Below are positions 3,122 to 9,265 of a stretch of DNA of 20,323 nt, one piece after another. Position 1 is the stretch's first letter; every line of letters starts with the position of its first letter. Both the position numbers and the translations under genes were made by a program. The stretch spans positions 1 through 20,323 of IMG/VR virus record IMGVR_UViG_3300006735_000346; one strand, 5' to 3'. The DNA is from a virus. The notes beneath the pieces are model-generated. The model searched no databases. It saw only the letters and a program-made list of their open reading frames with translations, and was not told where the DNA came from.

Positions 3122-3489
3122 TTATTACTCCATGTTCGTTAATTAATTGATGGCTAAGCTTACTAATTATAATAGGTCATTCCTAGTAATAAATAGTAAT
3201 AACTATAAATAAATAGTACAGTAAGACGGGCGCACCACCTGGTAATTAACTATAAGTATAATAAAAACAACGACTTATGCAGCTAAAGTATAATAAGATC
3301 GGCGGGCGTGTATATTATAAGGAGTAAAATCTGCGGGCAAATTACATAGGTTAACCACCCCCCCCCATAACCGCTCGGCGACATCGGTAGGGTATGTATT
3401 ATACTCTCCAGATATTTTTTATGACCTAAAAGGCTTTTTTTTTACTTGCTAATAATGGAACTATAAGTGTATGTTTTCGTTATAGTTAT
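3122..3489. promoter_or_regulatory. Divergent intergenic control region
   Basis: This 368-base stretch separates the two transcription directions and has no convincing gene. It holds AAGTATAATAA at 3254-3264 and again at 3286-3296, spaced 32 bases apart, and the inverse AGTATAATA at 3397-3405. It also has ACTATAA at three places (near 3202, 3249 and 3460), GC-rich islands with CGGGCG near 3227 and 3304, and nine consecutive C at 3358-3366. TATAAT-like boxes fit a bacterial -10 element, but good -35 boxes are lacking, so phage-specific activation is possible. A position next to terS would also suit a packaging site; that is speculation. Confidence 0.6.
3166..3195 (-). promoter_or_regulatory. 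Candidate leftward promoter
   Basis: On the minus strand a perfect TATAAT (complement of 3166-3171) lies about 45 bases upstream of the first leftward gene. The best -35 match at 16-17 bases spacing is only TTTATT. It is the best placed sigma-70-like -10 element for the left operon. Confidence 0.35.
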
Positions 3490-3981
3490 ATGCCAAAGAA
3501 AACAAAAACTCAAGTAATTAAGAAAGCGACAAAGGATGTTCAAGACAATCCGTACCTAAAAGACTTTCTTAAAGAATACCAAGAGGAAACTGGCTTACAG
3601 ACACGTTTTACAGCAAAGAAAGATGAGTTTTTATCTTACTTGGTTGCTAACAATGGATTTATATCTCATGCAGCAAAAGAAATGGGGTTCTTTCCAGCTT
3701 CAGTACGATTCGCAATGAAAGGTGACCCTGCATTTCAGCAAGCGGTTCAATCTATAAGAGAAGGATTTGTAGCTGAACGATTGGACGGACTCGAAAAAAC
3801 TTCTTTTGAACAAGCAGCCAAACCTGGGAATGTTACAGAACGTATCTTCCAGTTAAAGGCGCACGACCCTGCAAAATATCGAGATCGAGTCAACCAACAA
3901 AATACACAAGTGAATGTTGTCGTATCGGGAACATCACCAAAGGATAGAGCAGCAGTATTAAAAAAGATGAAAGTGAACTAA
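3490..3981 (+). CDS. terS: Terminase small subunit
   Basis: A 163-residue protein directly upstream of the large terminase. TerS recognises the packaging site and loads DNA onto TerL. Residues about 45-80 hold a helix-turn-helix-like segment (ANNGFISHAAKEMGFFPASV) followed by helices. Residues about 115-133 (ERIFQLKAHDPAKYRDR) match the block after the central helices in many HTH-type small terminases. ATG 3490 is the first start in frame after a stop at 3427, but no ribosome binding site precedes it (TATAGTTAT), so initiation may be weak or leaderless. The last codons contain an A-AAA-AAG slippery heptamer at 3960-3966 that would join this protein to the 53-aa frame that follows, giving 230 residues. 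Confidence 0.8.
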   Translation: MPKKTKTQVIKKATKDVQDNPYLKDFLKEYQEETGLQTRFTAKKDEFLSYLVANNGFISHAAKEMGFFPASVRFAMKGDPAFQQAVQSIREGFVAERLDGLEKTSFEQAAKPGNVTERIFQLKAHDPAKYRDRVNQQNTQVNVVVSGTSPKDRAAVLKKMKVN

Positions 3982-3982
3982 A

Positions 3983-3997
3983 TCACGAAGATCGTGA
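3983..3997 (+). other. Small hairpin downstream of the terS slippery site
   Basis: TCACGA and TCGTGA form a six-pair stem around an AGA loop. It begins 16 bases after the A-AAA-AAG heptamer. It could stimulate frameshifting, though the usual spacer is 5-9 bases, or it could be incidental. Confidence 0.4.
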
Positions 3998-4019
3998 ATC
4001 TATAAAAGATAGTATTTTT

Positions 4020-4181
4020 ATGACTCCTAGAGACATATATTGTATGTTTTTGCGTACATCTTTCGGTTTATCACCTAAAACCGCAGAAGAGGCAACTAAT
4101 TTTGCTTTAGATTTGTTTGAATTAGATAAAAATGGTAAACTTCCATTAGATTGGGAACTATTTTATAGGTCACAAGCATAA
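4020..4181 (+). CDS. 53-aa protein or C-terminal extension of TerS by -1 frameshift
   Basis: ATG 4020 to TAA 4181, overlapping the terL start as TAATG. It encodes MTPRDIYCMFLRTSFGLSPK, then an acidic helix and a C-terminal LPLDWELFYRSQA. The start has no recognisable ribosome binding site. The frame is open upstream to 3948 without any ATG, GTG or TTG, and reads DESELNHEDRESIKDSIF before the Met, a plausible protein linker. Entry by -1 slippage at 3960-3966 in terS would yield a 230-residue TerS variant. In small terminases the C-terminal part contacts TerL, so an extension here would be functionally apt. Other explanations are a separately translated small protein or a one-base sequencing or assembly error in the A run. 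Confidence 0.6.
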   Translation: MTPRDIYCMFLRTSFGLSPKTAEEATNFALDLFELDKNGKLPLDWELFYRSQA

Positions 4182-5590
4182 TGGATGTAAACATATCTTA
4201 TCGAGATGGGGAAGGAAACATAACTGCCCCATTAGATCATCAAGAAGAATTTCATTTATTTACGGGATGGAGTAAACATCAGGTATTGGCAGGATCACTT
4301 GGTACAGGTAAAACTGAGGCGATGTGTATGGAGGCAATCCATCAAAGTGCTGCATTTCAAGGGAATTTAGGTTTAATGGGTAGAAAAGTATTGGATTCGT
4401 TCAAGAAATCTACCTTAATTCAGTTGCTCGATCTTGGTCAAGGCTTTATTCAAAAGCATCGCGCCCAAGATAGAGAAATTATCTTCAAAAATCGCTCTAA
4501 AATAGTATATATGGCGTTAGATGACTCTCGCGACTCTATTCAGCGTATAAAATCTATGAATTTAGGGTGGTTTGCGTTTGACCAGATTGAAGAAATGACC
4601 GAGGCTACATTTATAGCTGCCGCGGGACAAATGCGTAGAAAAAATGCGATGAGATGTAGTTTTCACACCTCTAATCCAGCAGGTCACGATTGGGTATGGA
4701 AAAGATGGAAGAAAGATAAGGAAAAACAAAACAAGAAAAAAGGTGGGTATCGTTTAATTGAGACTATGACATGGCAACCTGGAGTTGCTGCGCCTGAAAA
4801 AGACGAAGAAGTAAAGCTATATTCAGACAATCCTCATTTACCTGCGGATTATATTAAACATTTACTTTCTATGCCTGAACAATGGGTCAACCGCTATGTA
4901 TATTGCAGTTGGGACGATTTTGCAGGACTTGTATACCCAGAATTTAAAGAAGAAACACATTTAGTAAAGCCATTCGATATTCCGAATTGGTGGAATCATT
5001 ATGTAGTATATGACTATGGATATAGAAATCCTACTTCCATTTTATTTGCTGCTTCTGATGATGAAGGGACGATCTATGTATATGATTTAATTTATGTTAG
5101 CGAGCATACCATAGAAATGTTAGTTCCAAAAGTAGAGCGTAGATTAAAACGTGGAGTTAATTATACATTCCTGGCTGATCCATCTATTGTTAGAACGGAA
5201 AGAGATGGAAATAGTGTAGCGGATGAGTGGTATGAGTACGGAATTGAGTGGGAAAAAGCAAAGAATGATAAGCGCGCTGGGTTTGAGCGAGTCTCTGCAT
5301 ATTTAAGGCTTGATAGTAATGAACGTTCTAAGTTATTGTTTTTTAAAAAATTAAATATGAAACCTTTGGTCGAAGAAATCGTTGACTATAAGTGGAGGGA
5401 GTTAAAACATGGCTTTGAAAATCGTAATTTACCTGAAGAACCAGTTAAAAAGAATGATCACGCAATGGATTGTTTAAGATATTTAGTTCATTATGTAGAA
5501 GATAGTGATTCTCCTACAGAACAAAGTGATGATTATGGTCTATGGGGTATGTTTGGAAAATCTAAAAAGAATAGTTGGATGAGTGCATGA
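4181..5590 (+). CDS. terL: Terminase large subunit (packaging ATPase and nuclease)
   Basis: A 469-residue motor protein that pumps DNA into the prohead and cuts the concatemer. The N-terminal ATPase has Walker A AGSLGTGKT at 37-45, a Walker B-like strand LGWFAFDQIEE at 128-138 (D134, with E137 or E138 catalytic) and a coupling motif TSNP at 163-166. The C-terminal RNase H-like nuclease shows D278 in YDYGYRNPTS, D333 in LADPS, and D426/D430 in NDHAMD, the expected acidic metal ligands. Length and layout are complete for the family. The start shares its A with the upstream TAA, and the end overlaps the portal start as ATGA, so all are coupled. Confidence 0.97.
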   Translation: MDVNISYRDGEGNITAPLDHQEEFHLFTGWSKHQVLAGSLGTGKTEAMCMEAIHQSAAFQGNLGLMGRKVLDSFKKSTLIQLLDLGQGFIQKHRAQDREIIFKNRSKIVYMALDDSRDSIQRIKSMNLGWFAFDQIEEMTEATFIAAAGQMRRKNAMRCSFHTSNPAGHDWVWKRWKKDKEKQNKKKGGYRLIETMTWQPGVAAPEKDEEVKLYSDNPHLPADYIKHLLSMPEQWVNRYVYCSWDDFAGLVYPEFKEETHLVKPFDIPNWWNHYVVYDYGYRNPTSILFAASDDEGTIYVYDLIYVSEHTIEMLVPKVERRLKRGVNYTFLADPSIVRTERDGNSVADEWYEYGIEWEKAKNDKRAGFERVSAYLRLDSNERSKLLFFKKLNMKPLVEEIVDYKWRELKHGFENRNLPEEPVKKNDHAMDCLRYLVHYVEDSDSPTEQSDDYGLWGMFGKSKKNSWMSA

Positions 5591-8235: not shown

Positions 8236-8251
8236 ATAAAAGGATAGTAAA
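8236..8251 (+). promoter_or_regulatory. Ribosome binding site of the capsid gene
   Basis: AAAAGGATAGTAAAATGG places AAGGA 6 bases before the ATG and is nearly the same as the scaffold gene leader. Confidence 0.55.
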
Positions 8252-9265
8252 ATGGCAAATTGGTCAACAGGATTACAGGTTTCACGTTGGGCGAAACAAC
8301 TTGCTTATGAAGTAGGTAAAGAGATTTATTTCTCAAAGTTCATGGGTGAATCTTTTGATTCTATGATAGTTAAAAAACAAATGGATGAAGGTAAAGGTAA
8401 AGATATTACTTTTGGTCTTGCAGGATTAACACCAGCAGCTGATAATAACAGTGGTGGTTTTTATACTGGTGATACTGCAATCGAAGGTAATGAAGCTAGC
8501 CTTTCTTCTAATAGTCAAACAGTATCAACAGCACACAGAAGATTTGCTGTGATTAGTGATGGTAATTTTGCAGATAGTAAGGTTTTGTACGATTTTCGTA
8601 CAGAAGCTCTTTCTGAGTTAAAAAGATCATACGCAGAAGATCACGATGCACAAATCTTTAGTGCTTTAACAGCAACAAGTGGTAATTTTGGTCAGCTCAA
8701 AGCTGTTGCAGCTGGTTCTACTTATGGAAACTCAGATGGTGAAGCTAGTCTTGCAGCTACTGGTAAGATTGCTTTAGAAGATATTTCCAAACTAAAACGT
8801 ATTGCTATGTTGGGTGGTTCTGGTACTTGGAAAATGAGACCTATCAAAGTGGAAGGCAAGGATTACTATGTCTTATTAGTGCATCCCGAAGTCTCTTATG
8901 ACTTATTTCAGCTTGATGGTTTTCAACAGATACAGCGCGAAGCAAATGTACGCGGTGACGATAACCCGTTATTTGCTGGAGCATTGGGAATGTATGATGG
9001 AGTTGTAATCCATGAGCATGAAGGGATTACTACTGCTGATAATATGGGTTCTGGTAACGATATAAAAGGTGCAAGAAACCTATTTTTAGGTGCAGGTGCT
9101 GGTCTTTGTGCTGGAATTGGTGAAATGAACTGGGTTGAAAAAACCTTTGACTATGGCAACAAGCTAGGTATTGCTGCAGGTCAAATATACGGAGTGTCTA
9201 GAGCTGTTTTTAACAGTAAAGATTACGGAAGTATTCAGTATCTAACAGCAAGAACTGATATTTAA
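8252..9265 (+). CDS. Major capsid protein, N4 gp56 type
   Basis: A 337-residue HK97-fold shell protein. The N-terminus (LAYEVGKEIYFSKFMG), the KDITFGLAGLTP strand near 50-61, YTGDTAIEGNEASLSSNSQTV near 71-91, the HRRFAVISDGNF block near 95-106, and YYVLLVHPEVSYDL near 204-217 fit the N4 gp56 family capsid proteins. Glycine-rich surface loops appear at 143-170 and 264-283. It follows the scaffold and is followed by a GC-rich hairpin, the usual arrangement for the most highly expressed virion gene. No N-terminal prodomain is evident. Confidence 0.9.
   Translation: MANWSTGLQVSRWAKQLAYEVGKEIYFSKFMGESFDSMIVKKQMDEGKGKDITFGLAGLTPAADNNSGGFYTGDTAIEGNEASLSSNSQTVSTAHRRFAVISDGNFADSKVLYDFRTEALSELKRSYAEDHDAQIFSALTATSGNFGQLKAVAAGSTYGNSDGEASLAATGKIALEDISKLKRIAMLGGSGTWKMRPIKVEGKDYYVLLVHPEVSYDLFQLDGFQQIQREANVRGDDNPLFAGALGMYDGVVIHEHEGITTADNMGSGNDIKGARNLFLGAGAGLCAGIGEMNWVEKTFDYGNKLGIAAGQIYGVSRAVFNSKDYGSIQYLTARTDI

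Follow-up and report, generated by a model that had tools for sequence, protein, structure and literature searches.

How do ribosomes reach a gene that opens without a canonical start codon? The question is raised by a small conserved open reading frame (ORF) which sits between two DNA-packaging genes, terS and terL, in a lineage of uncultured, probably marine phages, represented here by a window of 20,323 nucleotides (the whole stretch of DNA analyzed, positions 1 to 20,323 of IMG/VR virus record IMGVR_UViG_3300006735_000346). The original prediction was that a programmed -1 frameshift at a slippery heptamer near the end of terS appends this frame to the terminase small subunit as an extension.

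The terS-terL junction in the window and its close relatives

The genes follow in the order terS, small ORF, terL and portal, the portal being P22-like, and both the protein family and the position of the upstream gene are those of a terminase small subunit (Table 1). The terS frame at 3955-3981 reads GTA TTA AAA AAG ATG AAA GTG AAC TAA, which sets the heptamer in the zero frame with the stop five codons beyond it, as had been claimed. The -1 frame is indeed open from 3948 to 4178, its closing TAA (4179-4181) overlapping the terL ATG at 4181, and the length calculated for a slipped product, 159 + 71 = 230 aa beside the 163 aa of TerS, is correct. Directly 5' of the terS ATG, a leader at 3457-3489 (GGAACTATAAGTGTATGTTTTCGTTATAGTTAT) has a mean identity of 91% across 12 diverse relatives; it occurs once in the window, holds the inverted repeat AACTATAA/TTATAGTT, lacks an SD sequence, and could be a promoter, an operator or an RNA element.

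Table 1. Features at the junction of terS and terL, in window coordinates.
Feature	Position	Strand	Basis or remark
terS, terminase small subunit, 163 aa	3490..3981	+	phrog_4044 E 2e-7, phrog_309 E 0.0014; directly upstream of terL region
SD-like AAAGGA within terS	3939..3944	+	15 nt before slip site, 12 nt before ATT; CCA AAG invariant in 42/42 distinct sequences
TAG stop, upstream closure of -1 frame	3945..3947	+	read from sequence
ATT in -1 frame, candidate non-AUG start	3957..3959	+	in 50/51 close relatives, also L048/L140; missing from L047
Candidate slippery site A_AAA_AAG	3960..3966	+	A_AAA_AAR in 36/51, A_AAG in 15/51; A3960 invariant
Overlap of terS end and -1 frame (KMKVN-stop / DESEL)	3966..3981	+	sequence and substitution analysis
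-1 frame extension, 71 codons and stop; core domain 4020-4178	3966..4181	+	alignments of relatives and AF2 model
Linker, coding in -1 frame only	3982..4019	+	substitutions 19/22/57; no -1-frame stop in 42 sequences; clear in 3/4 subclades
6-bp hairpin	3983..3997	+	window; shifted 5-bp version in L001/L005 only; not kept in other lineages
terL	4181..5590	+	phrog_2 E 1.5e-33; Pfam Terminase_3 E 3.8e-12; ATG overlaps extension stop (TAATG)

The close set (n = 51) comprises the window and 50 IMG/VR contigs from 46 metagenomes, of which 42 distinct sequences were used for the tree. In the scan of viral contigs, the TerS proteins of these 50 relatives are 76-98% identical to that of the window where complete; L048 and L140, with TerS 65% identical, were found in addition. 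A further search with TerL for new lineages returned the same contigs. Neither TerS nor the extension had a tblastn match in cultured phages, and no TerS relative was found in bacterial and archaeal genomes. In one contig (L023, 3590-3718) the extension runs off into unrelated sequence, likely through chimeric assembly.

The same relation between terS and the -1 frame holds in 51/51 sequences, including 15 from which the A6 run is absent, 14 reading TTA AAG AAG and one TTA AAG AAA. One extra base in the run would join both frames into a single intact 230-codon terS, and a sequencing error of this kind had been named as a caveat. As the long run is absent from those 15 sequences, however, they offer none for misreading, and the repetition of the frame relation in 50 contigs from 46 metagenomes, 15 of them carrying AAG in the run's place, refutes error in assembly or sequencing and reduces its probability to practically nil. 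With the A run missing from 15 sequences, transcriptional slippage, too, becomes less likely as the shared mechanism. Comparison with homologues, which had been proposed as a check, returned a mixed answer: the split is kept in close relatives and no single 230-aa frame was found, but the strict heptamer is not kept.

Coding constraint on the linker and loss of a start codon

Across the 38 bases that separate the terS stop from ATG 4020, changes counted on the tree of 42 distinct sequences number 19/22/57 at codon positions 1/2/3 of the -1 frame (p about 4e-6, with sites treated as independent), and the sequences with a stop within this linker number 0/42 in the -1 frame against 16/42 and 23/42 in the other two. 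The bias recurs within the window's own subclade (0/4/10), in the L018 group (2/2/13) and in the largest group (0/0/8); the fourth subclade shows it weakly (5/6/7). Immediately past the slip site and up to the stop, the -1 frame is conserved as coding sequence, as would be expected of a frameshift, and the suspicion that the linker is not idle sequence is borne out. With coding constraint acting on the linker, ribosomes must already be translating the -1 frame when they reach it. As read from these substitutions, the start of the functional protein lies upstream of 4020, which leaves the 53-aa ORF as only the core of a predicted protein no shorter than 71 aa.

A plain ORF caller would nonetheless annotate an ordinary, separate 53-aa gene from ATG 4020, a codon that is conserved in all close relatives and lies about where the confidently modeled core of the fold begins. 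We consider such a gene highly improbable, given that the preceding 38 bases (linker peptide DESELNHEDRESIKDSIF) carry the -1-frame coding signature in most subclades, that the window shows no SD ahead of 4020, and that homologues begin about 17-19 residues earlier. It is also very unlikely that starts specific to individual lineages, located past the terS stop and used by termination-reinitiation, provide the entry. Codons that could serve are present in frame in other lineages (TTG at codon +3 in many, GTG at +3 in L047, CTG at codon 0 in the L018 group), and relatives do use stop-start coupling; none of these codons is common to all, however, and the window and its ten nearest relatives maintain the same coding linker (0/4/10) in a -1 frame that, as originally stated for the window, contains no ATG, GTG or TTG before 4020. 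The coding linker and the absent start codon, and not the heptamer alone, are the informative parts of the observation. Ribosomes must, on this evidence, enter the start-less gene from inside terS, probably by slippage or by initiation at AUU, between which sequence alone does not distinguish.

In the outer relatives the extension is a free gene. Where TerS identity is 50-55% (L080-L110 and others) it stands as a gene of its own, 69 aa long, with an ATG that overlaps the stop of terS (AAAATGA), an arrangement repeated in L202, while L147 has a separate 71-aa extension gene with an ATG; the start of family B aligns without gaps to window codon 3972-3974. Closer to the window, in L045 and L046 (TerS 79%), the extension is a separate ORF with a TTG start, reading TTG AAA AAA AAT GAA where others read ATT AAA AAA GAT GAA. 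These free genes imply that the extension is an ancestral free protein whose canonical start was lost in the clade of the window, and, on alignment, the frame at 3966-4178 is best read as a genuine gene in the terS-terL cassette, coding for a small protein and separate in ancestry. The clade also records how a gene passed from an overlap of stop and start (ATGA) into a deep one with no start codon. An independent gene in relatives had been named as the pattern that would count against a frameshift; distant relatives do carry a free gene with an ATG, although of 69-71 aa and not of 53 aa. No in-frame fusion of TerS and extension was present among the relatives fetched, a finding that would have lent support rather than one that was strictly required. 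Other small ORFs also occur at this junction: in L045 (3430-3830), and likewise in L046, terS and the extension are separated by an inserted ORF of about 100 aa, together with what resembles a duplicated terS tail, and in L201 a different small ORF lies immediately upstream of the extension.

Possible entry by slippage or at an internal AUU

We favor -1 slippage near the end of terS, yielding a TerS-extension fusion, over AUU initiation, and assign it a probability of about 0.5; this figure, like the lower weight that we attach to AUU, is a judgment and not a computed posterior. Some ribosomes would slip back by one base on A_AAR (A_AAA_AAG in the window), miss the TAA at 3979, translate the linker and make the 230-aa fusion beside the 163-aa TerS. 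As the slipped ribosomes would terminate on the start codon of terL, translation of terL may be coupled to the shift.

The slip-prone motif occupies the zero frame of terS in all 51 close relatives, the most diverged included, and in L048. In Escherichia coli, the heptamers of IS elements are predominantly A_AAA_AAG and A_AAA_AAA, and no tetramer is more shift-prone than A_AA.G; A_AAG alone is weak when it lacks a strong stimulator (PMC4066793). The first base of the motif never varies, but 8/24 Leu sites are likewise unchanged. At the first Lys codon the third position has changed in 4 steps, an ordinary rate, and Lys third positions vary no more and no less than average, which gives no sign of selection for the strict heptamer. 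Further, A is the last base of about 46% of Leu codons in these genes, so that Leu-Lys-Lys will often give such a heptamer, which by itself is not improbable. The useful range reported for an upstream SD stimulator is 9-14 nt (PMC5009743), slightly shorter than the distance from the conserved AAAGGA to the slip site. The AAAGGA region forms the lowest window of synonymous O/E in terS (0.24), although other windows reach 0.29-0.30. Downstream, the six-pair hairpin originally noted 16 nt beyond the site is present (3983-3988/3992-3997), but it is unremarkable against shuffled sequences (z = -0.94) and private to the subclade of the window; no downstream RNA structure is conserved across lineages, and Rfam returned no match.

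Alternatively, and in our estimation possible though less probable, ribosomes may initiate internally at AUU 3957-3959, aided by AAAGGA 12 nt upstream, to make a free 74-aa protein (MKKDESEL...) with no fusion, which would preserve the ancestral state. ATT persists in 50/51 close relatives and in L048 while the overlapping TerS residue varies (V/I/L/A); free homologues begin at about the same place, as at the family B ATG, and the free copy in L045/L046 opens with TTG AAA AAA at the position of the ATT AAA AAA of others. In addition, AAAGGATAG also acts as the apparent SD of the capsid gene at 8252, and internal AUU starts with a ribosome binding site are proven for RcsD-Hpt of Yersinia (PMC10191623). 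Nevertheless, the diverged L047 has TCT in place of ATT and retains A_AAA_AAG, AUU is weak as a start codon, its SD spacing is long (12 nt, compared with 7 nt at the capsid gene), and initiation would fall inside a translated gene. Nor is a four-fold site with at most one step rare, as 10/94 such sites in these sequences have one change or fewer, and synonymous constraint is not decisive, clearly favoring neither slippage nor AUU. Weighing against a fusion are the free gene of outer relatives, the TTG ORF of L045/L046, and the retention of AUU in 50/51 sequences. What stands of the original prediction is that entry upstream of the linker is required by coding constraint, in an arrangement kept in nearly all close relatives; fusion by frameshift goes further than the comparison establishes, given a free gene in relatives, a varying heptamer and the AUU alternative. 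The apparent SD of the major capsid gene (8236-8252) is AAAAGGATAG, which contains the same AAAGGATAG as terS 3939-3947.

Known systems, implications and the extension protein

Slippage at this locus would resemble that in dnaX of E. coli, which combines an A_AAA_AAG site with an upstream SD-like stimulator and derives zero- and -1-frame products from one start; in dnaX, however, a downstream stem-loop is proven and the shift shortens the protein, whereas the shift predicted at terS would lengthen the product and has no conserved stimulator. Tail assembly chaperones of the lambda G/GT type likewise have a -1 ORF that lies past the upstream gene and lacks its own canonical start, giving two isoforms from one start, but the gene here is terS, the extension is free in outer relatives, and the motif alternates between heptamer and tetramer. 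Recoding has been suspected in a terminase gene, that of Streptomyces phage Hau3 (PMC5009743), as bypassing at UUA and not -1 slippage, and with no extension at the end of terS. The counterpart for AUU initiation is RcsD-Hpt of Yersinia, a free protein made from an AUU start with a ribosome binding site inside another gene (PMC10191623), although that is a bacterial signaling gene and its start is proven, while the one in the window is a candidate.

In keeping with the original statement that no terS case is established, we found no paper that treats terS and slippery-site frameshifting together among open-licence papers, the suspected bypassing in Hau3 being the nearest case. If slippage takes place, it would be the first case in terS as far as these open-licence sources extend, and would imply rings that mix TerS forms and a fixed ratio between TerS and TerL. 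Two forms of TerS (163 and 230 aa) may thereby supply one packaging ring while ribosomes are fed to the terL start, a free ancestral packaging protein having been captured in one lineage as a frameshift-encoded TerS domain; we advance this scenario tentatively, at a little under even odds. AUU initiation, if true, would be a rare instance, among phages, of an AUU start conserved in evolution. Under either reading, ORF callers miss or truncate a conserved protein of the packaging cassette across a whole phage lineage.

As to the protein itself, the extension had no useful match in PHROGs or Pfam, and a fold search of its model against PDB and BFVD returned nothing at E <= 0.001. The AF2 model of the 74-aa form (29 sequences) has a helical core at residues 21-60 (pLDDT 92-98) and low confidence over the first 20 residues, a pattern compatible with a linker and equally with a free N-terminus; the TerS model was poor (mean pLDDT 52) and was set aside. 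Within the extension, the segment at 4119-4165, LFELDKNGKLPLDWE, resembles an EF-hand loop, with a helix-loop-helix at this point in the model and weak matches to calbindin/secretagogin profiles (E about 0.03).
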